Of a stretch of 24,305 nucleotides of DNA, positions 4,878 through 22,523 are shown piece after piece. The DNA lies in IMG/VR virus record IMGVR_UViG_3300046006_005339, positions 1 to 24,305 of that record; one strand, written 5' to 3'. The translations under genes and the position numbers were made by a program. The notes beneath the pieces are model-generated. The model saw nothing but the letters and a program-made list of their open reading frames with translations. It did not search any database and was not told the origin of the DNA. Origin of the DNA: a virus. Positions within the stretch are counted from its first letter, which is position 1; every line of letters begins with the position of its first letter.

Positions 4878-5290
4878 TTTTTTGCGAGGACATCTCCAGA
4901 GCGCGCATTGTTAAAGGCGTCCTGAATGGCTTCGCGTACTTCTTTGATATCCAAGAGCGCCTTGATGCTGTCCGGGGTGCAGGTAATCGGCTCGTCACCG
5001 TCTAAGAATGGGAAGTCATGCGCAGGGTGCTTTTCAAAACCGATAAAGGCATCGTCCAGCTGCTTAGCGGCCAGCGCCAACGCGCCTTTGGTATCGCCAC
5101 TTTCACGGAGGTCTTCGAGCTTCTCGAACTGCTCACGGGCAAACGAAATCGGCTGGGTCTTAAACAGACCAATGAAATGGGCTTTACCAACTACGGTTTC
5201 GCCTTTGTCATCAATCTGGTCCGTCGGAATACGGGCACAAATCGCGGCTTTGAATTGCTGTTGTTTTAAAGCGGTCAGTTGAAATTTCAT
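4865..5290 (-). CDS. G-like tail assembly chaperone
   Basis: A 141-residue protein starting MKFQLTALKQQQFKAAI, lying between the tail-tube and tape-measure genes, where lambda-like phages encode gpG. It is mostly helical and acidic in the middle (FEKLEDLRESGDTKGALALA). These proteins coat the tape measure during assembly and are not part of the finished virion. The last codons are GCA AAA AAC TCG AAG AAG TAG, which contain the heptamer A AAA AAC, so a minority of ribosomes should continue into the T-like frame. The Shine-Dalgarno is weak (GAG about 10 nt before the ATG), and the gene lies just behind a terminator-like hairpin. The function rests on position and the frameshift rather than on a strong family signature. 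Confidence 0.85.
   Translation of the reverse strand: MKFQLTALKQQQFKAAICARIPTDQIDDKGETVVGKAHFIGLFKTQPISFAREQFEKLEDLRESGDTKGALALAAKQLDDAFIGFEKHPAHDFPFLDGDEPITCTPDSIKALLDIKEVREAIQDAFNNARSGDVLAKNSKK
4877..4883 (-). promoter_or_regulatory. Programmed -1 ribosomal frameshift site, A AAA AAC
   Basis: Six adenines followed by C lie in the zero frame as GCA AAA AAC, four codons before the G-like stop. Both tRNAs can re-pair after a -1 slip (AAA to AAA, AAC to AAA). The new frame reads CTC GAA GAA GTA and stays open into the DUF1799-like reading frame. A short inverted repeat, CTGGT (4860-4856) and ACCAG (4841-4837) on the minus strand, could form a downstream stimulatory hairpin around a GC-rich loop. 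Such frameshifts are conserved in tail genes of many long-tailed phages. Confidence 0.85.
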
Positions 5291-5318
5291 GGTTTAAATC
5301 TCGATTAAAAGGTGGTTT

Positions 5319-5340
5319 AAAAAAGGGGGCATCCGTGCCC
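5319..5340 (-). terminator. Rho-independent-type terminator behind the tail-tube gene
   Basis: Read leftward, GGGCA-CGGA-TGCCC is followed by CC and six T residues. It lies 26 bp after the tail-tube stop and before the chaperone gene, inside the late unit. The stem is only five G/C-rich pairs, so partial termination is likely. It would lower transcription of the chaperones and tape measure relative to the abundant tail-tube protein. Confidence 0.6.
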
Positions 5341-5366
5341 ACGACTCCAGGGAAACTGCAGCGGGT

Positions 5367-6314
5367 TTACTTGGTAACGATGGTGTAATCGCTGTTTTTG
5401 GCTGTAGGCACGATGCTGAGCTTGATGTCCAGGAACAACTTGCCGGCTTCTTTTCGGCGGGTGACACCCCCGAGCTGCAGGTTTGGAATGTTGGCTAACA
5501 GGATGTTGGTTACATCGGCAGTTTTACCGCGCTGATACACCAACGCTCCCTGGTCACCGGCTCGCGATTTGTTCCACCAGTTAATGGTGGTCGGGTTCGG
5601 CTCAACGATTGAGATATCCACCGAGCCTTCGCGACTTTCAAAGGCGATTTCTTCTTCACCGGTGACATGTATGTGGCTGAACTTGTTGCCAAGCGTGATG
5701 GTCATGTTGGCCATCCCGACAGCCTGACCAAACAGGGTCATGGTTTCCACCGTCGCAGCAGCGGTGTGCATCGGCGTAGAGAGGCCAACCCAGCTCACGG
5801 CTGGCAAGGTGCCGGCGGCAACAGGGCCAGCATCAAGGCCCATGAATTCGAACTCGTAATAGTCCAAATCACCGACTTTACTCACCAGCTTCGCACTACC
5901 GCGGACACCGGTCATTTTGTGCAGCACACCACTTGCACCACCGACGTAGTAGTAAATGATGCCGTGCTCAAAGTTGTCGGTCGCCGGCGCATAGGTTACG
6001 CTGGAGGTCGCCGTGATGGTTTCGCTGTTACCACATAAGCGCAGCAGCTTGCCGTTAATGGTTGGGACATCTTTGGCAGATGAGCCACGAATGTAGGCTT
6101 TAAAGGTCAGCTTCTGATAGCCGCCAGTGACTTTGTCAGCAGCGCCACCTGGGAAGCCACGGGCTTCTTTCATCGTGGTTTTGCTGTACTCAGGGCTGTA
6201 CTGCACATCAAACACAGGCACTGCATCTGCAGCGACCAGCGCCTGGTCGAGGCCATAGGCAGCAGAGCTGACTTTGACCAGGATATATTCTTCTTCGGCA
6301 CGTAATGCAGGCAT
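5367..6314 (-). CDS. Major tail tube protein
   Basis: A 315-residue protein of mostly beta-strand character, starting MPALRAEEEYILVKVSS. The ATG at 6314 has GGAGAG five bases upstream. Position supports the call: it follows the tail terminator and a small linker gene and precedes the G/GT chaperones and tape measure, the slot of the tail-tube subunit in siphoviruses. The N-terminal part (about residues 20-200) contains repeated strand-rich segments such as YYEFEFMGLDAGPV. The C-terminal part (about 200-315) continues strand-rich, for example SVDISIVEPNP and LFLDIKLSIVP, and could be a second, tail-decorating domain. A terminator-like hairpin directly behind it fits high expression. I do not recognise a specific named family. 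Confidence 0.8.
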   Translation of the reverse strand: MPALRAEEEYILVKVSSAAYGLDQALVAADAVPVFDVQYSPEYSKTTMKEARGFPGGAADKVTGGYQKLTFKAYIRGSSAKDVPTINGKLLRLCGNSETITATSSVTYAPATDNFEHGIIYYYVGGASGVLHKMTGVRGSAKLVSKVGDLDYYEFEFMGLDAGPVAAGTLPAVSWVGLSTPMHTAAATVETMTLFGQAVGMANMTITLGNKFSHIHVTGEEEIAFESREGSVDISIVEPNPTTINWWNKSRAGDQGALVYQRGKTADVTNILLANIPNLQLGGVTRRKEAGKLFLDIKLSIVPTAKNSDYTIVTK

Positions 6315-8078: not shown

Positions 8079-10307
8079 TTACGGCACAACGGCCTTTTGC
8101 ACGCCCCGGAAGTCTTTCACCACAGCGCCGTAGATATGCCGGATCTTGTAAGTGAGGTTGTCGTTATTGAACAAACTGCCTACTGTCGGGTTGTCCTGGA
8201 CAAACATTTCCGGCTCTTCGTTGCCATCAAGGAAGCCCACTTCAATCGACGGCACATCGCTTGGATCAGCCATCGCGACCCAGTCATTGGCATCCGTCCA
8301 GTACCATGGCACCAGAATTTCCGGTACCTGCGTCTGAATAAAGGTCGGGTCGTTGTTGGTATTGCGTTGGAACAAATCAAAAGCGATCGCTTCAAGGTCT
8401 GCCGGCACCAGCAGCAGCCGTGGCGAAATCCCCAAAGGCTCGGTTGAACCAAATTCGGTTTGTTTCAACATTCCAAGGCGCGCTGCAGACCAGCTGGCGG
8501 AGGATAAAGCAGCAGTCAGCAGGTTGTTATGGGTTGCATGTGCCAACGCCAAGGTGTCGTAAATGACAGGGTTGGTGCGCAGAAAATCCAGTACAAACTT
8601 GCCCAACGTGCGCTTGGCCGCGCTGGATAATTTGTCCGGGATCTGCAGGATGGCGCCGATGTCGTCGTTCTTAATCATTTCCAACGTGATGGTTTCGATA
8701 CCACCGCGTTTAGACACGCTGTAGGACGCTTTTTGGTCCGTTGGGCTGGTCAGTGCCAGGTATGAACCAGATTCGGCCACTTGCGGTAAATCGCCATAGC
8801 CACCAAAGCGAACCCGATCTTGCGTGCGGAAATCATTCACCGGCACCACTTTGGCAATACGACGCCAGATGTCGTATTGATTCGGTTTGTTATAGTTTTC
8901 AATCAGGCGTCGATTCATGACATTACCCAGCACCGCCGGGAAGCTGCCGGAATTGAGCGCTTCAACCATTCGCGTACGCGAACAGTCTTCTAAACGGCCT
9001 GTTACTTTATGGTCGCCGGTCAGGTCGATGTAACATTCACGGAAACTCTGCACGTCGCGATTTTTCGGGTCGAAAAATGCACTCAGCATTTCTTCGCCAT
9101 TGGGTGTATCGCGGTATGCCGCACCGCCAGCAGGCATTTGTACTTTGCCGCCTTCAATAAACTTCGCCAAGTAATCGCGTTCGCCTTTAATGGCATCATC
9201 GACTGCGGCTTCGGTAAAGTTATCCAACGCCCCAAACTGGCTTTGCAGGCGGTCAATCGCCGGCTGTGGCAACTTACTGGCAGCGATAGTTGCACGGGCA
9301 TAAGCGCGGGCCTCTAACATTTTGATGGTCTGGTCCAGCTCAGTTTTCGTCACGCCAGCCACTGGAGCGACTGGTGCTGAAACCGCTTCACGAAATGCCT
9401 GCAGCACCGCTTCTTCGTTGGTTTGGTCAAGGCCAACTAGCATGGCGGGTTTTGCCTGGCGAATGGCTTCGATAAGTTTGCTTAACATAGAGTTTTCCCC
9501 AGTGGTTTGCTTAGCCTCGACCATGCGGATCACACGTCCGCCGGCGCCGGGCTCAATGATTAAATCGACAGAATTCACGCGCAGAATGCTTTGCGCTTCA
9601 CGCAACTTGCCGGCGGTTTTTGCATTGCCGTCACAGTCGATAGAAAAGCCAAACAAGTCAGTCATATCGCGCTCAACCGCTTCGCGCAGTTTGACGGCGG
9701 TATCACCGGCAGATTTGAGAACCAGCAATGTGGCCTGAATAGCGCCTTGTTTTTTGGCACCCGCGCTTTCCACAAAGCGCGGTTTCGACAGCTGGCCAAT
9801 CAGGTTGGTGAAGGATTTACCTTCGCCTTTAATGTGCTCCGCATCCGTCTTCACAAAGACACGGGCACCATCAAATAGCGGCGCAGCTTCACGCAGGACT
9901 TTGGCGGGATAATTGACGTTATTGAGGCTAACACCCGCTTCAATCACGGTGATAAGAAACTTGGTACCAGTATCATCAGCGCCTTCAATAAAGATGCTAT
10001 TGGCGTCCCAGGCTTCTTTCAGCTCAGTGACTGCAACCGGTGTGTACTCGCGCACCACTTCAGTAAAATCACCAATCACAATCTGGTTTTGGTCATTCAG
10101 GGTGTAGCCGTAGGCATAGTGGCGGCCTTCACGCTGAATAACGGCAACGTCGGCATACAGCGCAACAAGGTCAATCCAGTCGCGACCGACGTGCTTGGCC
10201 AGTGCGCCGTTTACCAGCGTCATAATGTCGCGGTAATCCCCGGCTTTTGCTTCACGCAATGCCAGATTACCGCGAATGCCCTGCTCCGGGCGCAGCCGCA
10301 AAGTCAT
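8079..10307 (-). CDS. Prohead protease - major capsid protein fusion (gpT-like)
   Basis: A 742-residue polypeptide combining three parts. Residues 1-95 resemble the short strand-rich domain found upstream of such proteases (VAVIQREGRHYAYGYTL). Residues 105-290 form a serine-type prohead protease: candidate catalytic residues are His158 (KTDAEHIKGEG), Ser222 (DLFGFSIDCDG) and Asp248 (VNSVDLIIEPGAGG). A helical linker, about 290-400, could serve as scaffold. Residues 405-742 look like a HK97-fold, Mu gpT-type major capsid protein, with RMVEALNSGSFPAVLGNVMN and a C-terminus IYGAVVKDFRGVQKAV. Mu itself encodes the protease/scaffold and capsid separately. The protease presumably frees itself and the scaffold by self-cleavage. 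The ATG lies 2 nt after the upstream stop without a clear Shine-Dalgarno, suggesting coupled translation. Confidence 0.85.
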   Translation of the reverse strand: MTLRLRPEQGIRGNLALREAKAGDYRDIMTLVNGALAKHVGRDWIDLVALYADVAVIQREGRHYAYGYTLNDQNQIVIGDFTEVVREYTPVAVTELKEAWDANSIFIEGADDTGTKFLITVIEAGVSLNNVNYPAKVLREAAPLFDGARVFVKTDAEHIKGEGKSFTNLIGQLSKPRFVESAGAKKQGAIQATLLVLKSAGDTAVKLREAVERDMTDLFGFSIDCDGNAKTAGKLREAQSILRVNSVDLIIEPGAGGRVIRMVEAKQTTGENSMLSKLIEAIRQAKPAMLVGLDQTNEEAVLQAFREAVSAPVAPVAGVTKTELDQTIKMLEARAYARATIAASKLPQPAIDRLQSQFGALDNFTEAAVDDAIKGERDYLAKFIEGGKVQMPAGGAAYRDTPNGEEMLSAFFDPKNRDVQSFRECYIDLTGDHKVTGRLEDCSRTRMVEALNSGSFPAVLGNVMNRRLIENYNKPNQYDIWRRIAKVVPVNDFRTQDRVRFGGYGDLPQVAESGSYLALTSPTDQKASYSVSKRGGIETITLEMIKNDDIGAILQIPDKLSSAAKRTLGKFVLDFLRTNPVIYDTLALAHATHNNLLTAALSSASWSAARLGMLKQTEFGSTEPLGISPRLLLVPADLEAIAFDLFQRNTNNDPTFIQTQVPEILVPWYWTDANDWVAMADPSDVPSIEVGFLDGNEEPEMFVQDNPTVGSLFNNDNLTYKIRHIYGAVVKDFRGVQKAVVP

Positions 10308-10309
10308 GT

Positions 10310-10582
10310 TCAGGCAGCCAGGTTGCCGAGCAGCTTCTGACCGTCAACAGTGACCACAGTCACTTCGTTGCCACGCACCGCAAAGGCCAGCACTTCATCT
10401 GCTTTGACTTCAATTTCCACGGTTCGGGTGACTGGGCGCTTATGCTCATCCAGTTTTGGTTGTTTGGTTTTGGGGTCGATAATGACTTCCACCACTTCAC
10501 GTTTGACCAGTTTGGCCACGTCAGCATCGGTAAACTTCGGTTGTTCTGCGGTTGTTTCAGTAGATTGGTTTTGCTCTGCCAT
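10310..10582 (-). CDS. Small acidic protein upstream of the capsid gene
   Basis: A 90-residue protein starting MAEQNQSTETTAEQPKF, with a good GGAGAG Shine-Dalgarno before the ATG. After a disordered, Gln/Glu/Thr-rich N-terminus come a lysine-rich stretch (VEVIIDPKTKQPKLDEHKRP) and strand-like segments ending VTVVTVDGQKLLGNLAA. Its stop is 2 nt before the protease-capsid ATG, so expression of the two is probably coupled. A capsid assembly or decoration role is conceivable from position alone. I do not recognise the family. Confidence 0.6.
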   Translation of the reverse strand: MAEQNQSTETTAEQPKFTDADVAKLVKREVVEVIIDPKTKQPKLDEHKRPVTRTVEIEVKADEVLAFAVRGNEVTVVTVDGQKLLGNLAA

Positions 10583-10642
10583 TGCAGCTCTCCGGTTAGT
10601 GGATCAGCGAACAATGGCAGTTTGGAATAGCGGGGATTCAGT

Positions 10643-10661
10643 TGAAATTAAAGGGTTTTAG
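10643..10661. repeat. 19-bp cassette-boundary repeat, copy 1
   Basis: The plus strand reads TGAAATTAAAGGGTTTTAG. It differs by one base from the copy at 18334-18352. It lies 6 bp beyond the stop codon of the AbiGi-like gene, on the side facing the resumed capsid genes. A second loose match nearby (GGTTAGTG and ATCAGCG near 10594-10609) resembles GGTTAAGTG and TTCAGCG beside the other copy. Confidence 0.45.
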
Positions 10662-10666
10662 GAATT

Positions 10667-11437
10667 TTAGTGTTCGATTAGCGTTTCCCATGGCACAATT
10701 GGAGCTTCAATCTCTCGTCCAAAATAGCTATTCAATCTATCGTAATGCCCGCCAGCCTTTGGTAAAACGATAAGCTCAATATCTGAATACTGGAAACCGA
10801 AATTTCCAACTTTCCGCCATTCCCTCTCGCAATAAATTGAATGAAATTCTGATTCAGAGAACGTTTTCACCCAAGAAAGTACAGATAAGGCGCGCTCTTC
10901 ACTCTCTTCGGCTAAACGAATAAGCTCTTCACATTGCGCGTGATTTTCCCAATCAAAGTACTTATTTGATTGGCGTAACTCAGAATGTAGTTTATGCAAT
11001 ACTCTATTTAGCTCCGAGTTCTCGAGTGTATACAGGACTGGATTGAACAACTCCCTGAGTATCGCTTCACGCTTAAAGCCTATAGCCATTCGACCATAAC
11101 GTTTTGCGTGGTAATGAAGATGCTGAATAGGTATATCTGCAACACAAACTACATTGCTCGTAGGTTTAAAACTTATCAGCGACATGCCTTCTAAATCTTC
11201 GCCAGATGCCGCAAGAATGGGGTCTTCGCTAGCTGGCCTTTGTGTCTTAAAAATCTCCTCCGATTTGCCTGCAAGGACCACTTTGCTTTCAAGTATTGCC
11301 TTCAATGCTCGATATGAGTCTTTAACAGGCTTTGGTCTGTCGTTCTGCCTGCGAGTCTGGGGATTCCAAACGGGCCCCCCCGTAAAATGCCACAAAATCT
11401 TCGAAACGGTACCAGGTGTTTTACTCATCCCACTCAT
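10667..11437 (-). CDS. AbiGi-like putative abortive infection protein (moron)
   Basis: A 256-residue protein inserted between the gpF-like and capsid genes. It resembles the AbiGi family (PF10899, putative abortive phage resistance). Features fitting it are KILWHFTGG (13-21), a core VADIPIQHLHYHAKRYGR then MAIGFKRE (99-124), NPVLY (132-136), and the late motif YCEREWR (202-208). Lactococcal AbiG has two proteins, AbiGi and the nucleotidyltransferase AbiGii; no AbiGii partner is visible here. The gene is visibly AT-richer than the surrounding structural genes, with codons such as ATA and AAA, which suggests separate acquisition. It starts inside the end of the gpF gene (ATG 11437, or 11428 in frame). 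The likely role, inferred, is to protect the lysogen or exclude other phages. The family assignment was made by eye. Confidence 0.65.
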   Translation of the reverse strand: MSGMSKTPGTVSKILWHFTGGPVWNPQTRRQNDRPKPVKDSYRALKAILESKVVLAGKSEEIFKTQRPASEDPILAASGEDLEGMSLISFKPTSNVVCVADIPIQHLHYHAKRYGRMAIGFKREAILRELFNPVLYTLENSELNRVLHKLHSELRQSNKYFDWENHAQCEELIRLAEESEERALSVLSWVKTFSESEFHSIYCEREWRKVGNFGFQYSDIELIVLPKAGGHYDRLNSYFGREIEAPIVPWETLIEH

Positions 11438-12233
11438 CCATAAAAGGCACCATCATGCAACCGCAGCGGATCACCTCACTGGCGGGCGCTTTGGGGTCAT
11501 GCGGGTGCATCATTAACACTGTCCCGATAATAAAAGGTTTATCAACTGGTTGCACCTGATTGTTAGCAACCGCATGGCTTAAGCGAGGTTTGCGGCGATT
11601 ACTACGTTTCCATTGCTTACTAAGGGCCGGCACAAACTCGCTGGCTTGCTCCAGACGTGCCTGGCTGGACATGCCGTACAATCGGCCGAGTTCGGTTTGG
11701 GTGATAGTTTTGGCGCGATAATCCGCATTGTCGGTTAACTGACTAGCGATGCCGGTACGAAGCTTTTGCAGGTCAATAGCCCCCATCGCAGCTAGCGACA
11801 GCTGCTGGCCAATCGCTTTTGCAGCGTCACTGGCCACGTCTTTGATTTTGTCGACCATAAAAAAACGCACCGCTTCCAGCTGTTGAATGTTGAGCGCCGG
11901 AGCCAAACCAACATACTCAACTGCTGCGGCTGCCAGAGGTTTATCAATCAAATCAATACCGGCTTGCCAGGTGCGGTTGGCCACATTAATCACCTGAGAT
12001 TCGGCTTTTACGCCCATAGCCGTCAGCAGACGATCAACTTCAGATCTCAGTTTGCGCAGATGCCAGGTTTGCCAATCATTGGGATTACCCTGCATTTGCG
12101 CCAGGATCTCGGTTTCTGTTTGCTTCAACAGCTCTGACAACTGGCCATATAACTCTTCCTGCAACAACTTGCGCTGTTTCACCTGGCGCGCCCGCTCTGC
12201 GTTAAACGCTTTACGTTTTTCCGCCCCAGTCAT
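11421..12233 (-). CDS. gpF-like head morphogenesis protein (SPP1 gp7 family)
   Basis: A 270-residue protein starting MTGAEKRKAFNAERARQVK. It matches the Mu gpF/SPP1 gp7 group of minor head proteins that associate with the portal. A long helical N-terminal half contains YVGLAPALNIQQLEAVRFF. The conserved C-terminal region begins AKTITQTELGRLYGMSSQ, continues with KQWKRSNRRKPRLSHAVANN, and ends with MMHPHDPKAPASEVIRCGC. Its ATG overlaps the portal stop as ATGA, the usual order in Mu-like phages. The last residues (PFMDEWDE) lie under the start of the AbiGi-like gene, so that insertion left this gene intact. Confidence 0.88.
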   Translation of the reverse strand: MTGAEKRKAFNAERARQVKQRKLLQEELYGQLSELLKQTETEILAQMQGNPNDWQTWHLRKLRSEVDRLLTAMGVKAESQVINVANRTWQAGIDLIDKPLAAAAVEYVGLAPALNIQQLEAVRFFMVDKIKDVASDAAKAIGQQLSLAAMGAIDLQKLRTGIASQLTDNADYRAKTITQTELGRLYGMSSQARLEQASEFVPALSKQWKRSNRRKPRLSHAVANNQVQPVDKPFIIGTVLMMHPHDPKAPASEVIRCGCMMVPFMDEWDE

Positions 12234-13717
12234 GCAGCCTCATCCTGTTCGGCTGGATCAACATCAGGGTCAACAAAAGCATCTTTTTCGGCTTGCTTGG
12301 TTTTGTTATCCTGCTCACGTTTTTTCCTTTCCGTGGCCGCTTCACGGGCTTTCGCCAATTCGTCGACCGCATCAAAGGCCACGCCTAATTGACCGCAGAC
12401 GCTGCTGATCACCTGCAGCGCTGTCTCTTCGCTGATGAGCGTTGCTTCTATCATCAGGATCATCGCGCTGCAAACCTGCTGAAGGGCGGCAGCATATTTA
12501 GTCGTGTCCTTGGCAGTGATCTCCGGAAAGTTTACTTCGGTGTAATAAGCATAACTTTCCAGCTCTGGCTCGCGCTGCCCGTGTGCTAATTCATACTGAC
12601 GGATCACATAAGTCGCCATGCTATGCAGCATAAACTTGATATGACGCTGGCGCATGGTCAGCATCTTCAGCGTCGGCTCGCCCATGCTCTCGCCGTTCGC
12701 CCGGTTCACGTCGCCGGCGTCAGCGAACCAGTGAGGCGGCATGGTGGCGCCGGACAGGATATGATTGCGAAATAGCTTGCCGATCACTTCAGTATCGCCA
12801 CTGTTCAGCTGCGGGCTTTGCGCTTCCCACGTTTCGCGGTCGTTGTGCACGTTCACTGAGTTGGGTGCCGGCGGCTTAATTTCACCCGCTCGCCGGTTCA
12901 CTTCGGCTTGGTCGGCACCGACTAATGTAACATCCCAGACAAATGCCCGCAGCGCCTGGGCACGCTCGCCTTCACCGAACAGGAATTCATCGTAGAGGTC
13001 CAGAAAATCCGCCTGCGCCGTTAAATCTCCATGACCCCGGCCCTGATGGCAAAAGGCGTTGATGTTGAAATAAAAGATGTCGCCGTCGGTAAAACTGGCC
13101 CGGATGCCCTGAGTACGTTTGGTAAACACATCCTCTGGGCCATTAATAATCACCCGGTATTTTTGATAGGTTTGTTTGGTGCCGCGCTTTTTGGTGATGA
13201 CGCCAATTGGCTGCTCGGAATTGTCCGGGTCAAACACAACTTCGGCCACCTGGTTGGGGTCGAGATACCCCAGTCGAACATGACCGTTTAATGGGTTCAC
13301 AAAAGCCGGATAGAACTGTTCGCCAAACAGCGCCAACTCCCGAACTTTCTTTTCCAGCTTGATATCCATGTTGTTGATGGGATCGCGCCAGAAGCGGTCC
13401 AGCACTTTCTGGTAGTCGTCCTCTTCATTGACCAGCTTGACCCCTTCCGCCAGCAAGTAAGCGACTGGTAGTTCAATTAGTCGGTTAGCGATTAAGTTCG
13501 CTTGCCACAGCCAGGCAGACATTTTCACCATACGCTGCCGCTGCACCGGGTTTAAATCTCGCCCGGTGTCGCTACTAAGTCGCGTCCAACCGGTCATATC
13601 TTCCTGTACATTGGTGCCAGCAGACTCCCGCAATGGCACTGTTTGGTCTTTTTGTGGTTCATCTGATTGAGCCGGTTCTGCTTTGAACCAGTTTGTTACT
13701 GCTGCCCATAAAGCCAC
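12230..13717 (-). CDS. Portal protein, DUF935 (Mu gp29-like)
   Basis: About 495 residues. An ATG at 13750 extends the frame, but the real start is most likely the GTG at 13717 (ALWAAVTNWFKAEP), because a strong AGGAGG lies 5 bases before it. The protein forms the dodecameric DNA gate of the head. Family features include TGRDLNPVQRQRMVKMSAWL (near 55-75), IELPVAYLLAEGVKLV, and FADAGDVNRANGESMGEPTL in the latter half. The C-terminal tail is highly charged (AREAATERKKREQDNKTKQA) and acidic at its end (DPDVDPAEQDEAA), which is common in this family. It follows the large terminase and precedes gpF with an ATGA overlap. Confidence 0.92.
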   Translation of the reverse strand: MALWAAVTNWFKAEPAQSDEPQKDQTVPLRESAGTNVQEDMTGWTRLSSDTGRDLNPVQRQRMVKMSAWLWQANLIANRLIELPVAYLLAEGVKLVNEEDDYQKVLDRFWRDPINNMDIKLEKKVRELALFGEQFYPAFVNPLNGHVRLGYLDPNQVAEVVFDPDNSEQPIGVITKKRGTKQTYQKYRVIINGPEDVFTKRTQGIRASFTDGDIFYFNINAFCHQGRGHGDLTAQADFLDLYDEFLFGEGERAQALRAFVWDVTLVGADQAEVNRRAGEIKPPAPNSVNVHNDRETWEAQSPQLNSGDTEVIGKLFRNHILSGATMPPHWFADAGDVNRANGESMGEPTLKMLTMRQRHIKFMLHSMATYVIRQYELAHGQREPELESYAYYTEVNFPEITAKDTTKYAAALQQVCSAMILMIEATLISEETALQVISSVCGQLGVAFDAVDELAKAREAATERKKREQDNKTKQAEKDAFVDPDVDPAEQDEAA

Positions 13718-13764
13718 GGCGGCCTCCTTTTGAAATCGGACGTAAAGCATTTACGATTATTTAG

Positions 13765-13820: not shown

Positions 13821-13844
13821 TAAAATCGCGCACAGCGCGTTTTA
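13821..13844 (-). terminator. Weak terminator-like hairpin at the terminase stop
   Basis: Reading leftward, the TAA stop is followed by CGCGC-TGT-GCGCG and then ATTTTA. The A residues before the stem also pair with the T residues after it. The short U-run makes partial termination more likely than full termination. Confidence 0.4.
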
Positions 13845-15284
13845 GCGAACACGGCGGAATAAGCCACCAGCGGTCTGCCTTAAACGCATTTTTTCTGGTT
13901 TGAATGTTTCGCGGATTGACTGAGTAAGGACTTGCACACCGGCCGCTGGCGCACCCAAGCTATTAGCGGCATGGATGGCAAGACCCAACGCCCAGAAGTG
14001 GTCGGCATGACCGTCTACTGTGCGTTCAGCGGTAAAGCGCACATTGCCGGCGGCCGTAATTTGTTTGGTGACCATTCGAAGGTCTGCCCGAATTTTTGGG
14101 TCATGTGGAATACGGAGTTTTCGATCTTCCATTGCGCCGCGAATGGGGTAAGCCAGCGCTTCTTTGACCTTCGGTGTAAAGGTCACCGCCTCGACCCGAT
14201 GTTCGCCCAGCGCATCCTGCGCATCATCAGCCCAGCCAATCCCCAAACCAGTTGCATCGATACAGACACGCTCACAGCGCTGGAACCACGGCCATAGAAT
14301 GGCTTCCTGCTCGCCTTTGCGCATGTTTTGCAACCGTTCGATGTGGCGGGTATAAATCACATCCCCCAGCAGCTCAACGACCCACAGCACGGTTAAGTCG
14401 TGCTTGCGGCCAATGTCGACGCCAGCGAACAACCTTCCACCTTCAATTTGTTGCCAGGGCAGATGGCTGGGGAATTCAGCCGAAGCAATCAGATCGTATT
14501 CAAGGAAGGCAACGTCATCGTCGGCTGGATTGCACATGTACTCTTGTTGAAACGACTCTTCGTCGGCACAGCCAGAACGTACAAACTCAAAATAGGCAGC
14601 CTCGTCCATGACCTGGCGCTCATCGTCGGCTGGCAGCATTTGCTGCAGCTTAAACAAAAAACCCTGGTCCAGAGCATCTTGCAGCGTGATCCGATGCAGG
14701 CTGATCCCCTTGGGATTACCATTCTCGCGAACTTCCCGGATCAACTGGTTAAAAAAGTTATGACTGCCCCGGTGAGTAGAAATGATTTCCATACTACCGC
14801 CCCAGGTAATACCCGGATAAGCAATGGACCACAGCTTGCGAGGATCCGGATGCAATGCAAATTCATCCAGAATACGGCCACCGCGTTTACCGGCTTGCGC
14901 GTCCGGATTGGAGCTCATGGAATGAATGCGTTTGCCGCTGGCGAACTCCAACACGTAAGCTGAGATCCTATCTTTTGGATCGAGGACGATTTCGCCAAGG
15001 TCTTTGGCGGCCAGATTCATGATAGTTGCCCACATCTTACAGTCTTCGATAAATAGCCTGGCTTGCAGGTCATCCCGACTGCTGACCCACTGGTCATGGC
15101 GGGCGCCTTGAGCAGAAGTTCTTTCATCCGCTGCATATGCCGTCGACCAAGACAATCCGATTTGCCGGGATTTTTCCATCAGCTTTAAGCGGCTGTTATC
15201 TTTAATCCAGGCCGCCTGAAACGGCAGAAAAATTCCGTCGGTATTGGCCGGAACAACCTTGGCATTTCCCTTTGTCTTGGCCAT
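13842..15284 (-). CDS. Terminase large subunit (Mu gp28-like)
   Basis: A 480-residue DNA-packaging motor. The ATPase domain shows SRQIGLSWS (39-47) at the Walker A position, ILDE (138-141) as Walker B with catalytic Glu141, and MEIISTHRG (165-173) as coupling motif. The nuclease domain has the RNase H-like acidic residues Asp290 (FAGVDIGRKHD), Asp343 (CIDATG) and Asp428 (GHADHFWALGLA). The ATG shares a base with the stop of the DUF3486 small-subunit gene (TGATG), so the two are translationally coupled. The length is normal. All visible key residues are intact, so the packaging motor looks functional. Confidence 0.95.
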   Translation of the reverse strand: MAKTKGNAKVVPANTDGIFLPFQAAWIKDNSRLKLMEKSRQIGLSWSTAYAADERTSAQGARHDQWVSSRDDLQARLFIEDCKMWATIMNLAAKDLGEIVLDPKDRISAYVLEFASGKRIHSMSSNPDAQAGKRGGRILDEFALHPDPRKLWSIAYPGITWGGSMEIISTHRGSHNFFNQLIREVRENGNPKGISLHRITLQDALDQGFLFKLQQMLPADDERQVMDEAAYFEFVRSGCADEESFQQEYMCNPADDDVAFLEYDLIASAEFPSHLPWQQIEGGRLFAGVDIGRKHDLTVLWVVELLGDVIYTRHIERLQNMRKGEQEAILWPWFQRCERVCIDATGLGIGWADDAQDALGEHRVEAVTFTPKVKEALAYPIRGAMEDRKLRIPHDPKIRADLRMVTKQITAAGNVRFTAERTVDGHADHFWALGLAIHAANSLGAPAAGVQVLTQSIRETFKPEKMRLRQTAGGLFRRVR

Positions 15285-15844
15285 CAGACAATCCCCAGCG
15301 CTTCGCGGATAGCTGCCTGAGTTTCAGCGGTTACACCGCCTTTGGTGCTCAGCGTATCCAGTTTGGATTTTTGTTCTGCCAGCAGTTCTTCTTTGAGTTG
15401 TTTCTTCAATACTGCGCTAGAATTTGCCGTGCGCTGCAGGCGCTGGATACTTAGCACCAAATCGCCCAAAGTCTCTATATCAACCGGGGCGTCGTCCGTC
15501 GCCTTCGACATCGCATGTGCAGTCGTTTTGAACATCGCGCTCATCAGCATCGACTGCAGCAACATGCCTTGCTCACCCAAGCTCGACAGGTCCAGCTTGT
15601 CCGCCATGGCCGTGGCATAGTCCTGGCAGCGACGCATGTCATTGGCCACTTCTTCCATCTTTTTGGCTTCGCGCCAAACCAGATTCTTGGATATTTGCTC
15701 AACATCAGAGTTGCCGGCATAGTTCGCCAGTTCAGTGTTAACCATGTCAGCAATGTCCTGACTGGTGTAGCGCTTGCTGTCTATCAGCCGGTGTAAAAGC
15801 GCCCTAATATCTTCGGGCAACAAGTCAACTTTGGTGCCTTTCAT
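15284..15844 (-). CDS. DUF3486 protein, small terminase subunit (Mu gp27-like)
   Basis: A protein of 186 residues from the ATG at 15844, MKGTKVDLLPEDIRALLHRL. The frame is open further upstream, but this start has GGAG 6 bases before it and gives the usual DUF3486 beginning (xDLLPxxIRxxL). An N-terminal helix-turn-helix-like region (SKRYTSQDIADMVNTEL) would bind the phage DNA, and the rest is helical, ending in a Lys/Glu-rich segment (KKQLKEELLAEQKSK). It recognises phage DNA and hands it to the large subunit. It sits directly ahead of that gene with a one-base overlap, as in Mu-like phages. Confidence 0.85.
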   Translation of the reverse strand: MKGTKVDLLPEDIRALLHRLIDSKRYTSQDIADMVNTELANYAGNSDVEQISKNLVWREAKKMEEVANDMRRCQDYATAMADKLDLSSLGEQGMLLQSMLMSAMFKTTAHAMSKATDDAPVDIETLGDLVLSIQRLQRTANSSAVLKKQLKEELLAEQKSKLDTLSTKGGVTAETQAAIREALGIV

Positions 15845-15845
15845 A

Positions 15846-16139
15846 TCAAACTCCGGGAGCTGGTCGTTTAACACCATCGACCCGCGCCCGGCCATTGGCC
15901 ACATCAACACCGCGCTCGGTAATACTGGCCACTAATGTCCGATCACCAATTTTACTGACCGCCAATAACCCTTGTTCTTCCAGCCAGCGCATATGGCTGC
16001 GAACGGCGTCACGACTCACGCTATGGCCAAAGTTATGCAGCACATCATGCAAAATGCTGTCGTTGGCGCTGTAGCCCTGGGTTTCACTCAAGGCCCGTAA
16101 AATGACCAGGCGCTGGTCCGCTTCAAATAACTCACGCAT
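15846..16139 (-). CDS. Winged-helix protein (Mu gp26 / VpaChn25_0724-like)
   Basis: A 97-residue protein that reads as a compact winged helix: LVILRALSETQGYSANDSIL (11-30), the recognition-helix region HSVSRDAVRSHMRWLEEQGL, then the wing AVSKIGDRTLVASITERG. This pattern is common between DUF2730 and DUF3486 genes in Mu-like phages. Its role may be in head or packaging regulation, but it is unproven in the family. The ATG overlaps the stop of the DUF2730 gene (TAATG), and its own TGA is one base before the DUF3486 ATG, so the packaging genes form one translational chain. Confidence 0.75.
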   Translation of the reverse strand: MRELFEADQRLVILRALSETQGYSANDSILHDVLHNFGHSVSRDAVRSHMRWLEEQGLLAVSKIGDRTLVASITERGVDVANGRARVDGVKRPAPGV

Positions 16140-17972: not shown

Positions 17973-18277
17973 CACAGCCCCAATGTCAGGCCAAGCACGC
18001 ATGCCACAACAACCAAGGCTCGTCGCAGCATAGCAAGACCACGCGGCATAAGGTCTTCACCTGTTTCAAGGTAAGTATGAGGACGGTCATAAGGGAATAA
18101 AGCGCGGTCAACCCAGTAAGCAATCACAACACCAAGGGTGACCAAACTAAGTTTATAAATGACGACGGGCAGCTGGTGGGGACTAAGTAAGCCAATGACC
18201 GGTAAAAGCAGCAAAGCCGTCAGCAACCAGCCAGTTAAGCGAGGGATCTTCGTTCGAATTGATGGTGTTATAGTCAC
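17972..18277 (-). CDS. Holin, three membrane segments (PF16080-like)
   Basis: A 101-residue protein starting at a GTG, with AGAGG five bases upstream. It has three hydrophobic segments: about 12-32 (LTGWLLTALLLLPVIGLL), about 38-57 (VVIYKLSLVTLGVVIAYWV) and about 85-101 (RRALVVVACVLGLTLGL), with a polar linker RALFPYDRPHTYLETGED between the last two. This matches the putative 2/3-transmembrane holin family often found ahead of Slt-type endolysins in Mu-like phages. It times lysis from the inner membrane. Since the endolysin carries a Sec signal, it could be a pinholin that only collapses the membrane potential. Confidence 0.75.
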   Translation of the reverse strand: MTITPSIRTKIPRLTGWLLTALLLLPVIGLLSPHQLPVVIYKLSLVTLGVVIAYWVDRALFPYDRPHTYLETGEDLMPRGLAMLRRALVVVACVLGLTLGL

Positions 18278-18285
18278 TTGGACCT

Positions 18286-18308
18286 CTGATGTGTTAAGGA
18301 CACATCAG
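18286..18308. other. 9-bp perfect inverted repeat upstream of the lysis cassette
   Basis: CTGATGTGT and ACACATCAG flank TAAGG. It ends 8 bp before the holin GTG and touches the Shine-Dalgarno AGAGG. No T-tract follows on either strand, so it is more likely an operator, activator site or translational hairpin than a terminator. It marks the beginning of the late genes. Confidence 0.5.
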
Positions 18309-18333
18309 CAGGTTAAGTGAACGGTTCAGCGGG

Positions 18334-18352
18334 TGAAATTAAAGGGGTTTAG
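18334..18352. repeat. 19-bp cassette-boundary repeat, copy 2
   Basis: The plus strand reads TGAAATTAAAGGGGTTTAG, one base different from copy 1 at 10643-10661. It spans the stop codon of the four-helix membrane protein gene, so the end of the accessory pair coincides with the repeat. Confidence 0.45.
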
Positions 18353-19223
18353 AGAATGGTATCGACACGATATCTTCGTCTTCTATCCGAATGAGTTTGA
18401 TTGGCCCCCCGGCAACCATTTCCTCCAGTTGTACTATTTCATCCAGTAGATCTCCGCGTTCAGCATAGGGGTTTGGTGTATCCTGGTTGATGTAACCGAT
18501 TCGCTTTTGAATGCTATTTATAGCTACTTGAATTTCAGCAACAGATTTTTTCAGGTCAAGACAGTCATTCTGGATTACTCGTTTTACGTCTCGAATTTCT
18601 GTTACGGCTGCAGCCAAAGATGTATCAACTGTTCGTGCTTTTGAGAAAGACAATTTCTCACTTTCAGAGAACTCATCAGCTTTTTCCAATAATTCAAGTG
18701 CTTTTTTACGTCTCTCAGCTTCTTCCTTTTTCTCTGCATCCTCTTTTTCTTTGGTCGCCAAAAATTCTGTAAGATCAGTTATTTCAAAGTCCAATAATTT
18801 TAACAAGAAAAATGACACTAATGATAAAGTTGAAAACACAACAGAATATACGCCGATAAAATAACTACTAGAGTTATAATTTTCGGCCGCAGCAGGGATA
18901 AAAGTCCAAAGCACAATCAGACAAGCACTGAGTAGGTAAATTAGGAAAAAAAAAGCGACTGCTAACTGACGTTTTTTGACAATGGTTCCAAGCTTTTTCG
19001 CATCCTCTGACTTGAGTGCTTTATGGCTAATCAAGCTCTGAAGCGATTTGACCAATCCAATTGCATAACTCAACGGAAGAAGGTAGACGAATGTTATAAG
19101 GTAAGCCTTGGAAGCAATGAGGTTACGTGTCTCAGAATCAAGAAGACCGTAAATAGCCAATAAGCCAACAACGGCAGTTACCGGAGCGACTATAAGTATT
19201 CTTCCAATAATACCTATTTTCAT
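18339..19223 (-). CDS. Four-helix membrane protein with cytoplasmic coiled coil (RexB-like partner?)
   Basis: A 294-residue protein. Four membrane segments lie at about 5-27, 39-58, 87-109 and 121-144. A charged coiled coil follows (DLTEFLATKEKEDAEKKEEA, RRKKALELLEKADEF, about 150-190) and then a helical tail. The ATG lies one base beyond the TGA of the preceding gene, so the two are coupled. Lambda RexB also has four helices but lacks the long tail; KwaA of the Kiwa system is another four-helix partner of a soluble protein. The likely role, inferred, is a membrane effector or sensor that depends on the upstream partner. Base composition is AT-richer than in the structural genes. No established family was recognised. 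Confidence 0.6.
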   Translation of the reverse strand: MKIGIIGRILIVAPVTAVVGLLAIYGLLDSETRNLIASKAYLITFVYLLPLSYAIGLVKSLQSLISHKALKSEDAKKLGTIVKKRQLAVAFFFLIYLLSACLIVLWTFIPAAAENYNSSSYFIGVYSVVFSTLSLVSFFLLKLLDFEITDLTEFLATKEKEDAEKKEEAERRKKALELLEKADEFSESEKLSFSKARTVDTSLAAAVTEIRDVKRVIQNDCLDLKKSVAEIQVAINSIQKRIGYINQDTPNPYAERGDLLDEIVQLEEMVAGGPIKLIRIEDEDIVSIPFSKPL

Positions 19224-19224
19224 A

Positions 19225-20256
19225 TCAAACTTCTAACACTCCATCAAGGACTCTCAGCCTAACCCAATTGTGGACTTTGAGATAAAAGTCTTCCTCATCC
19301 ACCAAGCCATTACAGAATTTCAGACTAATGTCAGCAGACAATATCAGTTTATCAGCTTTTAAAGTACCAGCCCCTTGAAACTCTACCTCGTAGTCTTCGA
19401 TATCAGTATGCCTTAGAGCTTTTGTTAAGTTATTCAATATCTTCTGAGTATCACCTTTAGCAGAATACTTGTAAGAGATTTCGACTCGAACCTCAATATT
19501 TGAGTCCGAGTCGACTCCTTTAGTCAGATCATCAGTTAATGTCCCCTGATTCAGACCAAGCGCTTCCAAAACAGCTCCAGCCCTGCCTGTTTTGAAAAAT
19601 GAGACCTTCTTTGTCTCTGGCACTTTCACCACATGAGAAGGATCTGATTCTGACGCCGCCTTAAGGTCAACCTTGGCATCACTAAAGGGGGCTCCAATTT
19701 TAATAGTTTTTACAGGAGTCTTGACTATCTTGTCGGTAGCTTCCTTAGTTAAGTGTTGCTCTAAAGTAACCCACTGATTGGTGTCAAAATGACCAGTTTC
19801 GACCAGAAGCCAATTTAGGTATTTTTCGAGTTCTTTTGTCCTAAGGCTCGCAGACTGAAGCACCACAAGATGATCGTTGAAAACACCGAAATAAAGAATA
19901 GAATCTAAAAACTCTCTTTGCTTTCCATCAGCTTTAGGCGGAACTATCTGCTCTAAACTCAAAGCGGACGCCGAATCGTCAATCGTCACTATATGTTTAT
20001 TAGCTCCAGCTTCATATCTAAGCAAATTTCCGAAAAACATACCAAAACGTGTTATGTGGGTATTAATAAACTCCTTTTCGACTGATTTTGTTAGTTCATC
20101 ATCATTACCCGTTGATAGCAGCCTATATCTTTCGGAAACTTTGGATCTTGATTTGATTGCGTCTGTAAGCATTGCTTGCAACGTCATTGGCGACGGTTGA
20201 AGATATGATGCATGTCTATAGTGTATTTTTTTTGTTCTGTTTTCTTGTTCTGCCAT
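19225..20256 (-). CDS. Soluble protein with RexA-like layout, candidate phage-exclusion sensor
   Basis: About 343 residues from the ATG at 20256 (MAEQENRTKKIHYRHASYL). A TTG at 20304 extends the frame but seems unlikely. The layout recalls lambda RexA (and loosely KwaB): an N-terminal strand-rich domain with YEAGANKHIVTIDDSA, then a strand-turn-strand-helix DSILYFGVFNDHLVVLQSAS with LRTKELEKYLNWLL, then a region that ends AGAVLEALG. The C-terminal half begins with SNIEVRVEISYKYSAKGDTQ and contains KADKLILSADISLKF. RexA is the DNA-binding sensor of the Rex exclusion system and acts with four-helix RexB. A four-helix membrane gene follows directly. Similarity is by order and spacing, not long identities, so this is inference. 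The gene is AT-rich like its partner. Confidence 0.45.
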   Translation of the reverse strand: MAEQENRTKKIHYRHASYLQPSPMTLQAMLTDAIKSRSKVSERYRLLSTGNDDELTKSVEKEFINTHITRFGMFFGNLLRYEAGANKHIVTIDDSASALSLEQIVPPKADGKQREFLDSILYFGVFNDHLVVLQSASLRTKELEKYLNWLLVETGHFDTNQWVTLEQHLTKEATDKIVKTPVKTIKIGAPFSDAKVDLKAASESDPSHVVKVPETKKVSFFKTGRAGAVLEALGLNQGTLTDDLTKGVDSDSNIEVRVEISYKYSAKGDTQKILNNLTKALRHTDIEDYEVEFQGAGTLKADKLILSADISLKFCNGLVDEEDFYLKVHNWVRLRVLDGVLEV

Positions 20257-20336
20257 TACTGTTTGGTCCAATACATATTCGGATGAGTGCAAAACAGGTA
20301 GCAAATATGCCGTCCCTGACTTATGTACTAGCTAAC

Positions 20337-20759
20337 TTAACGCCGAAAACCGTTGTAGCGCAACAGTTTTCCGTGGGCAGTGATTAGCGCTTCCGCCTTT
20401 TTCTGTCTGGTAAGCCACAAAGCTTCAAAAATAAACACAGGCGATGCCAGAAGCATTGCGACCCACATAGAAATATTTACTGCTTGTTGAAACGTAGGTG
20501 ACCCGAGAATCAGGGCCAGGTACATCCCGCATGCCAGAATGAACAGGGCCAAATAGATATTTGCTGAAATACTGGTGTGATTAATGAGAGTAGCGTTATG
20601 CCGATTGGCACGCACATACTGGAGCTCCTCAAGCTTAGAGCGACGCATAAAAGACCTGAAATGGATGGCTGCGAACTCTGATACTCTCCGGCCAATGTAA
20701 ATTGCACCGGCCCCAAATGTGATCATCTCGCCGATACCAATTGTAAAATCGAATTGCAT
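20337..20759 (-). CDS. Three-helix membrane protein, unknown
   Basis: A 140-residue protein with membrane segments at about 5-23, 63-86 and 95-116, separated by a basic, helical loop (RSFMRRSKLEELQYVRANRH). The ATG at 20759 has AGGAG five bases upstream. It lies 80 bp upstream of the RexA-like gene on the same strand, so it might be a third member of that unit or an independent gene. The divergent region 20760-20974 separates it from the rightward genes. I do not recognise the family; an inner-membrane location is the only firm statement. Confidence 0.65.
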   Translation of the reverse strand: MQFDFTIGIGEMITFGAGAIYIGRRVSEFAAIHFRSFMRRSKLEELQYVRANRHNATLINHTSISANIYLALFILACGMYLALILGSPTFQQAVNISMWVAMLLASPVFIFEALWLTRQKKAEALITAHGKLLRYNGFRR

Positions 20760-20974
20760 AGTTGCTCCTGCAGTTATGAGTTATCTCATGGGAAACTAAC
20801 CGCATCGTCAAATCCGCAAAAGTCCCTTCTGTACAACAAATATACGATTCTAAGAAATATCAAATCTTTATCAGGTAAAAGTTCGTTCGAGCTCGACTAC
20901 TCCTATTTTTCACATGGTCTTTGCTGTGATAACTTCAATGCAACTTTTGGAAAAATATTTTGCAGGGAGCAATG
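20760..20974. promoter_or_regulatory. Divergent intergenic region between leftward and rightward accessory genes
   Basis: It must hold promoters in both directions, but no good -35/-10 pair is visible. An inverted repeat, ATGAG-TTAT-CTCAT (20776-20789), lies 17 bp upstream of the leftward membrane gene and could be an operator. A perfect palindrome TCGAGCTCGA is at 20887-20896. The rest is AT-rich. No further gene is evident. Confidence 0.35.
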
Positions 20975-21256
20975 ATGACCACCATCAATAGTTCGTCGCC
21001 CGCATCGGTCTGGATCCAAGCCCAAACTAAAGTAGCCGACAACACAACGACACAGAATCCAGTTGCGAGCCCAACCACTACACCATCTATAGACTCCGTT
21101 CAAATTTCAGATGCGGCGCAGGAAAAGCTGAAATCAGAAACTGCTGTAAATACAGAGGCGCAGCCTTTACCCGAGCCTATCGACAGTACTGTGATGCCTC
21201 TAGGTAATGGCAGCGGTAATGATCCACCAGTTGACCCACCAATTGTGAGAACCTGA
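20975..21256 (+). CDS. Small disordered Thr/Pro/Ser-rich protein
   Basis: A 93-residue protein from the ATG at 20975 (MTTINSSSPASVWIQAQTK), with AGGGAG five bases upstream; the adjacent ATG at 20972 would add one residue. Low-complexity stretches (NTTTQNPVASPTTTPS, GSGNDPPVDPPIVRT) surround a short ordered-looking helix motif, SVQISDAAQEKLKSE. Motifs of this type (SVxxSDAAxxxL) occur near the ends of small proteins in some gammaproteobacteria. No function can be given. It is the first gene of a rightward trio with two membrane proteins, 14 bp upstream of the next start, so the three are probably co-expressed. Confidence 0.55.
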   Translation: MTTINSSSPASVWIQAQTKVADNTTTQNPVASPTTTPSIDSVQISDAAQEKLKSETAVNTEAQPLPEPIDSTVMPLGNGSGNDPPVDPPIVRT

Positions 21257-21270
21257 GGCAGAATTCGCCA

Positions 21271-21774
21271 ATGCAGTACTCTCATTTCCTGTATGAGTTA
21301 AACAACTATGTCTGGCTGGGCTATGTACTTGCCCTGCTAGCAACATACCTGTTGAACATCGGAAACAGATCCTATTACATCGGCGCTATCATAGTTGTTA
21401 TCTCCACTCTGACCATGTTGGTCATTGAACCCATTTATGTGAGCCTTGGTAAAGACTACCCATGGTTCGTATGGAACTTTTGGTATTTCACCTGGGCTTC
21501 AATAGACATTCTCAGTGCAATACTAATTTACATGCAGCACCGAAAAGAAAGAGTAAGGTTTGGCTTTGTATCCATCAGCTGCATTATTACTTTTGTGGCA
21601 TTGTGTATCGTGCAGTCTTTGCGGCATCTGGACATGGTAGTCATGGGAACCAACTTAATGGCTACCAGTTTTAAAGTGATGGTGAATTCGTTCAGTATCG
21701 GATTTCTGGTGTTGTTACTGCACCCCGCCTACTGCTCCATCAAACATCGCTTTCGCAAGGTAATGATGCAATGA
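21271..21774 (+). CDS. Five-helix inner-membrane protein, unknown
   Basis: A 167-residue protein starting MQYSHFLYELNNYVWLGYVL. Membrane segments are at about 13-31, 35-56, 66-89, 97-116 and 135-153. The third is preceded by aromatic residues (YPWFVWNFWYFTWASIDIL). Charged residues are confined to the short loops (QHRKERVRF) and the basic C-terminus (KHRFRKVMMQ), suggesting a cytoplasmic end. The Shine-Dalgarno is weak. Its stop overlaps the next start as ATGA. Its position beside the repressor on a prophage suggests a lysogen trait such as superinfection exclusion, but nothing in the sequence proves it. Confidence 0.65.
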   Translation: MQYSHFLYELNNYVWLGYVLALLATYLLNIGNRSYYIGAIIVVISTLTMLVIEPIYVSLGKDYPWFVWNFWYFTWASIDILSAILIYMQHRKERVRFGFVSISCIITFVALCIVQSLRHLDMVVMGTNLMATSFKVMVNSFSIGFLVLLLHPAYCSIKHRFRKVMMQ

Positions 21775-22073
21775 ACTGGTTTATGCTCCTGTTCATGGCC
21801 ATCTACGTTATCCTCGGGCTTGCTTTAGTCGTCAAAGCAAAAAGATTCAATTCTATTAACTGCAGTCCAGAACCTGAAATGTCCGCTGAGTTTAATGAGA
21901 AGCTGAATAAACTGGCGTGCCTGCGCATCGAAATTGAAAATATGCCGGCTGGGTACAGGAAGGTAAAGGCGCAAGAGATGTGGTTAAAAGAGCTGAACAC
22001 CTTGATGGCCAGCGACGACCAACACCGGCAGTCCGCAGAAAATGTCGTTCAATTCCGCCACATCAATCGCTAA
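21771..22073 (+). CDS. Membrane-anchored small protein, unknown
   Basis: A 100-residue protein with one N-terminal membrane helix (FMLLFMAIYVILGLALVV, about 4-21), then a charged helical domain (EFNEKLNKLACLRIEIENM, RKVKAQEMWLKELNTLMAS) and a disordered tail. Its ATG overlaps the stop of the five-helix gene, so the two proteins are probably translated together and may work as a complex. The gene ends 4 bp inside the 3' end of the convergent repressor gene. Transcription of this module would therefore run against the repressor transcript. Function unknown. Confidence 0.6.
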   Translation: MNWFMLLFMAIYVILGLALVVKAKRFNSINCSPEPEMSAEFNEKLNKLACLRIEIENMPAGYRKVKAQEMWLKELNTLMASDDQHRQSAENVVQFRHINR

Positions 22074-22477
22074 CCTACTTTAAGGCTATCGTCATCGTCG
22101 GCTACTGGCCCATTTATCCCCGTAACCTTTGTCAGATTCCGCATTAACAGCGTGTGCAGCAAATCATAAGTCTGTTCGCTATCGATATTAATCACTTTGA
22201 TTAGCGCTGCGTCATACAACATGCCGTGACCAGCTTTATCGATATCTTCCCAGGAAAACTGTTGATGGGACTTACTACTTTTTGAACCTGTAATCAGATA
22301 ACCAACATCGACTCCGACTGCCGAAATTTTCTGAAGGTAGTCAGCGTCCGGTGATCTTTCACCAGCTTCATAGTTGACTTGAGCCCGCCGTTGAACCCCT
22401 GCAAGTAACGCAAAATCAGCTTGGTTAAAACCCAACCGAGTGCGCTCTTCTTTGAGCCGCTCACAAAAAGAGTTCAT
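22070..22477 (-). CDS. XRE-type phage repressor (c-like)
   Basis: A 135-residue DNA-binding protein. An N-terminal helix-turn-helix (ERLKEERTRLGFNQADFALL, AGVQRRAQVNYEAGERSP, about 6-43) is followed by DYLQKISAVGVDVGYLITG, the usual continuation in phage XRE repressors. The C-terminal part (about 70-135) is short, lacks the Ser/Lys dyad of a LexA-like self-cleaving domain, and ends acidic (VADDDDSLKVG). It reads opposite to the Ner-like gene across the switch region. A TTGTACACA operator-like site sits immediately before its ATG, so self-repression is likely. It would keep the prophage silent. Confidence 0.85.
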   Translation of the reverse strand: MNSFCERLKEERTRLGFNQADFALLAGVQRRAQVNYEAGERSPDADYLQKISAVGVDVGYLITGSKSSKSHQQFSWEDIDKAGHGMLYDAALIKVINIDSEQTYDLLHTLLMRNLTKVTGINGPVADDDDSLKVG

Positions 22478-22523
22478 TTGTACACACCATTACATTGACA
22501 TGTGCCCATTTGTGCACAATAAT
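22478..22523 (+). promoter_or_regulatory. Early promoter and repressor/Ner operators in the switch region
   Basis: TTGACA (22495-22500) and AATAAT (22518-22523) are separated by 17 bp and read toward the Ner-like gene: a nearly ideal sigma70 promoter. The perfect palindrome TTGTGCACAA (22510-22519) covers the spacer and touches the -10. A similar half-site, TTGTACACA (22478-22486), abuts the repressor start, and ACATGT (22498-22503) overlaps the -35. The shared core TTGTRCACA suggests binding by the repressor or Ner. A repressor promoter was not clearly identified. Confidence 0.65.

Follow-up and report, generated by a model that had tools for sequence, protein, structure and literature searches.

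The principal finding of this study is that the junction between the gpF-like head morphogenesis gene and the major capsid protein (MCP) gene of a probable Mu-like temperate phage is a variable, recurrent cargo slot, that the slot is filled here by a gene of the AbiGi family, and that, as judged from sequence comparison, the AbiGi allele has been replaced together with its borders between near-identical phages. The window, by which we mean the whole stretch of DNA analysed, is 24,305 nt long (positions 1-24,305 of IMG/VR virus record IMGVR_UViG_3300046006_005339). AbiGi is an abortive-infection protein that has had a name, but no explanation, since the 1990s. We consider it about an even chance (0.5) that the gene in the window is exchangeable cargo, or a moron, of the head operon, and that it encodes a putative ADP-ribosyltransferase-like enzyme made late and used against competitors.

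The gene lies at 10667-11437 on the minus strand, encodes 256 aa and belongs by profile match to the AbiGi family (PF10899, E 3.8e-24; PADLOC AbiGi, 3.4e-11). Its PF10899 score of 86.2 bits, against the Pfam curated cut-off of 22.4, bears out the preliminary description, which had made the same assignment from motifs and had proposed this profile as the check. The match covers residues 94-219, and no other family scored at E <= 1 in the Pfam profile search. The motifs on which the assignment had been based are all present, with CVADIP at residues 98-103, RYGRMAIGF at 113-121 and YCEREWR at 202-208. Neither a tblastn search of annotated phage records nor a sequence comparison with solved structures found a relative of the protein. 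Counted from its first ATG, the gene shares 17 nt with the end of gpF (11421-11437, minus strand), compared with 14 nt in relative L002 and 17 nt in relative L074. A further in-frame ATG, at 11428, agrees with the conserved MSKTPG start and is possibly the real one, in which case the overlap shrinks to 8 nt. As had been claimed, gpF is undamaged by this overlap, its length being 270 aa in the window against 269, 270 and 270 aa in L002, L074 and L003, and the gene is AT-richer than its surroundings, with a GC content of ~0.42 over 10501-11250, some 10 points below the neighbourhood (0.50-0.57 across most of the head cluster). The possibility that AbiGi is a frameshift fusion onto gpF, as a MuF toxin would be, was rejected, since AbiGi has start codons of its own and a gpF-AbiGi fusion was found in no relative.

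The minus-strand order around the gene is that of a head operon. It begins with a Mu gp27-like small terminase, terS (15284-15910; PF11985, E 1.9e-23; phrog_426, E 7.6e-36), followed by the large terminase subunit, terL (13842-15284; PF17289, E 6.1e-19; PF03237, E 2e-10), the portal protein (12230-13750; phrog_10963, E 1.3e-103) and the gpF-like (MuF) head morphogenesis protein (11421-12233; phrog_2468, E 2.5e-27; PF04233, E 8.6e-4, below the cut-off). AbiGi comes next, and after it a conserved 90-aa gene (10310-10582), which forms the downstream border of the slot and of which a homologue stands immediately ahead of the MCP in 29 sampled relatives. The last gene (8079-10307) encodes a 742-aa protein in which a head protease region (phrog_15531 at 108-391) is fused to the MCP (PF25209, E 4.1e-51 at 448-738). 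The preliminary description had placed AbiGi between gpF and a capsid protease; its position between gpF and the MCP stands, but the 90-aa gene intervenes, and the protease downstream is a region of the capsid protein rather than a separate gene. An integrase-core (rve) match was found in 13 of 20 long relatives, mostly in ORFs of 600-850 aa, and a Mu-type DDE_2 match in some long relatives, both of which fit with transposable temperate phages; the rve match is absent from the window record, a 24-kb fragment. Elsewhere in the window, before the holin, a long AT-rich stretch (18250-22500, GC 0.36-0.47) contains ORFs of 294 aa and 359 aa, with a weak match to phrog_16807 and a strong match to phrog_3482, and is possibly further cargo.

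The slot itself extends in the window from 10583 to 11420 on the minus strand, between the gpF stop and the 90-aa gene. A scan with the capsid protein gave 72 relatives, and slot lengths were taken from the 43 non-redundant relatives with both flanks, as the distance between gpF and the 90-aa gene, or between gpF and the MCP where the 90-aa gene was unrecognised. These lengths range from 85 to 2807 bp; seven slots are near-empty (<200 bp) and 14 are at least 700 bp long. Gaps of at least 700 bp are significantly rarer at three control junctions of the same operon, namely dn213-dn170 (0/42, Fisher p 3e-5), MCP-dn213 (1/45, p 1e-4) and portal-gpF (5/41, p 0.036). The filled slots, many of which have a GC content below that of their flanks, carry a two-gene PADLOC defence candidate (PDC-M18A/B, 1e-111 and 9e-70, at 3999-5543 in L048), a Peptidase_M78/IrrE-like protein (L026), an ORF6N protein (L008), a DUF2786/DUF7168 protein (L010), a ParA-like ATPase (L025), and membrane proteins or proteins of unknown kind (L003, L031, L046 and L057). 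In PF10899 searches of 24 records, none but the window, L002 and L074 had AbiGi at the slot, so that the gene is present or absent among relatives at one site, as a moron is. Because the slot is near-empty in seven of the 43 relatives and holds unrelated genes in others, AbiGi is added cargo, as the preliminary description had supposed; what does not hold is its picture of a one-off insertion, since the slot is used recurrently. For the same reason a random single insertion was rejected, many unrelated genes having reused the slot. The preliminary description had also allowed that related phages might always carry the gene. Most relatives do not, and AbiGi was therefore rejected as an essential head gene. 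The slot resembles the anti-phage hotspots of P2 and P4 (PMC9122126) in being a small, high-turnover locus between two conserved phage genes with defence-like cargo, but differs from them in lying within a Mu-like head operon, between gpF and the capsid gene. It is a concrete site at which Mu-like phages can be searched for new defence genes.

The exchange of alleles at the slot is seen in L074. Its terS, terL and portal proteins are 98.6%, 99.8% and 99.6% identical to those of the window, with dS of 0.04-0.06, whereas its AbiGi protein is only 43.7% identical and dS is saturated. The bordering genes are intermediate, gpF with 95.6% identity and dS 0.43 and the 90-aa gene with 80% identity and dS 0.52. 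The AbiGi tree joins L074 to L002 (support 96/97), although the L002 backbone is far more distant from L074 than the window backbone is, and it places the window with the chromosomal gene L078 (support 84/85). A clade uniting the window and L074 alleles was rejected (p-AU 0.003). The near-identical backbones, the 44% identity of AbiGi, the L002-L074 grouping and the rejected window-L074 clade together indicate that the alleles were swapped. Rapid drift in place was rejected as the cause, since dS is saturated in AbiGi against 0.04-0.06 in terL and portal and the allele tree conflicts with the backbone. L074 ends shortly past the 90-aa gene, and the exchange is readable downstream to that point; this allele group is known at the slot from three phages. 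A pair of phages 99% identical in their packaging genes and 44% identical in AbiGi represents a natural experiment on selection for the exchange of defence alleles, and such a difference would be expected of a weapon used between competing phages.

The family also occurs outside these phages. Close relatives of the protein were found in 14 genome contigs as single genes with varied neighbours, and near-identical AbiGi proteins occur in different genera. Several marine bacteria carry homologues in integron-cassette-like arrays, and sequences of the CTAACAA...GCGTTA type, as in integron attC sites, border the gene in L081, L083, L084, L085 and L086, as read here directly from the sequence and not with an attC model. 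These homologues look like integron gene cassettes common to several genera. The family is nevertheless rare, with four occurrences in 299 sampled genomes of one phylum, one of which is the genome on which the search was centred. Among viral contigs, a degenerate DNA pattern for the window subfamily matched only the two known phages, and a looser pattern for canonical AbiGi matched 22 further contigs (L131-L152), all with canonical AbiGi.

With regard to activity, sixteen alignment columns are invariant in 30 homologues, the window included: L15, H17, F18, C98, I102, P103, H110, Y114, G115, P133, Y136, K191, E204, E206, W207 and R208. They define an H-x-T motif (H17-F18-T19, codons at 11381-11389) where the first predicted strand ends, in which T19 is conserved in >90% of the homologues, the CVADIP motif (11129-11146), the H110-x3-Y114-G115 motif (11093-11110) and the EREWR motif at residues 204-208 (10814-10828), which contains a candidate catalytic Glu. 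AlphaFold models built from 15 and 30 sequences reached pLDDT 79 and 86. In Foldseek searches of the PDB, entries for DarT, the DNA ADP-ribosyltransferase of the DarTG defence against phages, were the top five matches of the first model and the top four of the second (best probabilities 0.94 and 0.93); with E ~0.01, TM 0.34-0.36 and rmsd ~16 A, the match to the DarT fold is a lead and not proof. A Foldseek search against viral models returned nothing significant. In DarT, H13 and T15 contact NAD, and E160 and R51 are required (PMC9967889). AbiGi has the same order of an N-terminal H-x-T followed by a late conserved Glu. It differs from DarT in that there is no Pfam match to the DarT profile (PF14487), that HHalign of AbiGi against DarT gives at most 7%, and that the family has no invariant Arg between HFT and the core as a counterpart of R51. 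HHalign of AbiGi against DUF2971 (PF11185) gives 74-84%, with controls at or below 7%; the best alignment, 84%, spans 140 columns with all the main motifs in register, but the value varies with the sub-alignment used from 3 to 84%, the smaller ones giving 3-5%. DUF2971 is itself a function-unknown family, and the window protein has no direct Pfam match to it. Based on the predicted fold, the H-x-T motif, the late conserved Glu and the DUF2971 alignment, we infer that AbiGi may be a stand-alone enzyme, ADP-ribosyltransferase-like and NAD-using, of the DarT/DUF2971 kind, and not an antitoxin. This link gives AbiGi a testable biochemical activity, and it suggests that the 'antitoxin' label is wrong.

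That label comes from the Pfam name, by which AbiGi would serve as the antitoxin in a toxin-antitoxin pair, AbiG, and the Pfam description is all that speaks for it. The lactococcal AbiG system does consist of two genes (PMC3985639), and the window protein resembles its AbiGi in matching the profile far above the cut-off and in the motifs HFT, C-x2-DIP, H-x3-YG, P-x-Y and E-x-EWR. It differs, however, in its length of 256 aa with an insert of ~20 residues after HFT, in its place in a late head operon, and in having no AbiGii partner, its neighbours being the conserved phage genes for gpF and the 90-aa protein. There is no conserved partner gene in the 14 chromosomal loci, no recurring partner in the viral contigs with enough flank, and, among the window proteins scanned, no match to the macrodomain that a DarG partner would have. 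Furthermore, the lactococcal AbiGi and AbiGii components are not toxic in E. coli (PMC3985639). With a partner gene in no locus examined, we rejected the antitoxin reading as highly improbable.

When the gene is made bears on several other explanations. A consensus scan of 10000-12400, which is a weak test, found no sigma-70-like promoter and no terminator, where 2.5 and 3.2 would be expected by chance, so that, by consensus sequence, AbiGi lacks the own promoter and terminator of a classic moron. Taken together with the late strand and the overlap with gpF, this suggests that AbiGi is probably made late, mainly in lytic growth, in agreement with the earlier view that it is read in the late unit. 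That a defence-type gene in such a unit is unusual, as was also claimed, has to be qualified, because there is a precedent in Pseudomonas phage JBD26, where Tab and anti-Tab are located between the genes for the terminase (PMC10884400). Like AbiGi, these defence and counter-defence genes are accessory members of a late operon; unlike it, they are unrelated proteins at a different junction and form two partner genes instead of one. It is unlikely, in our estimate, that AbiGi instead confers superinfection resistance from the lysogen through a weak promoter of its own inside gpF, as classic morons do. Such expression would suit the low GC content and the accessory distribution, canonical AbiGi adjoins CI-like repressors in some other prophages (L137 and L148), and resistance is conferred by prophage hotspots of this type (PMC9122126); but besides the empty promoter scan, AbiGi shares the strand of gpF and overlaps it, whereas Tab, which is expressed in the lysogen, has a promoter of its own and is encoded on the opposite strand (PMC10884400). 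We regard as quite unlikely a counter-defence role, in which a late-made AbiGi would shield the phage from a system of the host or of a prophage directed against late functions, as anti-Tab does. Anti-Tab has the same layout, being on the late strand and overlapping the structural gene upstream of it (PMC10884400), and the swapping of alleles would also fit changing host defences. However, bacterial chromosomes carry the family, including in integron-cassette-like arrays, where phage counter-defence makes little sense, and AbiGi exceeds typical inhibitors in size and its invariant residues are like those of an enzyme.

The position directly after gpF raises the further idea that AbiGi is a virion-delivered effector, made beside the MuF protein, packaged in the capsid, and then injected into the next cell to be infected, where it would act on that host or on its defences. 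In MuF polymorphic toxins (PMC5576092), cargo is likewise tied to the MuF head protein, surveys propose that MuF-fused ADP-ribosyltransferases are packaged and injected (PMC9503650; PMC5576092), and relatives of the window phage have effector domains on gpF, such as the ADP-ribosyltransferase toxin domain fused to that of L035. Yet AbiGi is a separate protein, gpF has no C-terminal extension in the window and no fusion in the window, L002 or L074, a known packaging signal is absent, and the canonical AbiGi of other phages is located elsewhere, for example beside CI-like repressors. We therefore give virion delivery a low probability.

Our preferred explanation remains that of a late-made weapon carried as exchangeable cargo. 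According to it, transcription from the late promoter would run on into AbiGi, with expression coupled to that of gpF as the gene layout suggests, and the protein would be made mainly in the lytic phase of the phage's own cycle, with some leakage possible in the lysogen. The enzyme, by its predicted fold and motifs, would use NAD to modify nucleic acid or protein, and it would disable rival phages that share the cell, or render the doomed cell useless to them. Its specificity may be under diversifying selection, to which the associations of the family and the allele swapping point. The gene may have a phage-resistance role, and exclusion of competing phages appears the most likely one, because the slot holds defence-like cargo, the homologues include possible integron cassettes and the alleles are swapped. 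Several points weigh against this explanation: an enzyme that modifies DNA or RNA and is made late could harm its own phage unless the target is absent or modified, lactococcal AbiGi is not toxic in E. coli (PMC3985639), and the DarT fold match is suggestive, with no sequence support for DarT and no counterpart of R51. We also entertain as a tentative, rather doubtful extension that AbiGi proteins are partnerless DarT-like ADP-ribosyltransferases whose alleles the lineage swaps through the head-operon slot, the enzyme being either a late product or one carried in the virion, each phage being armed with a different, competitor-specific weapon.

Several observations on the relatives deserve mention in their own right. 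In L070, at 4990-5655 on the minus strand, and also in L056, the slot holds a 221-aa ORF on the strand opposite to the late genes, as expected for a lysogen-expressed gene. The slot genes of L031, L046 and L057 encode three divergent membrane proteins with a common GD-[LI]-FGGVNA motif near the N-terminus; those of L031 and L046 have no Pfam or PADLOC match above threshold. Finally, the gpF homologue of L035 (3311-4885) ends in an ADP-ribosyltransferase exoenzyme domain (PF03496, 5e-10), and those of L039 (3952-5289) and L016 (3840-5201) have C-terminal extensions with weak, sub-threshold MuF_C matches, which suggests that MuF-type effectors may exist in these Mu-like phages.
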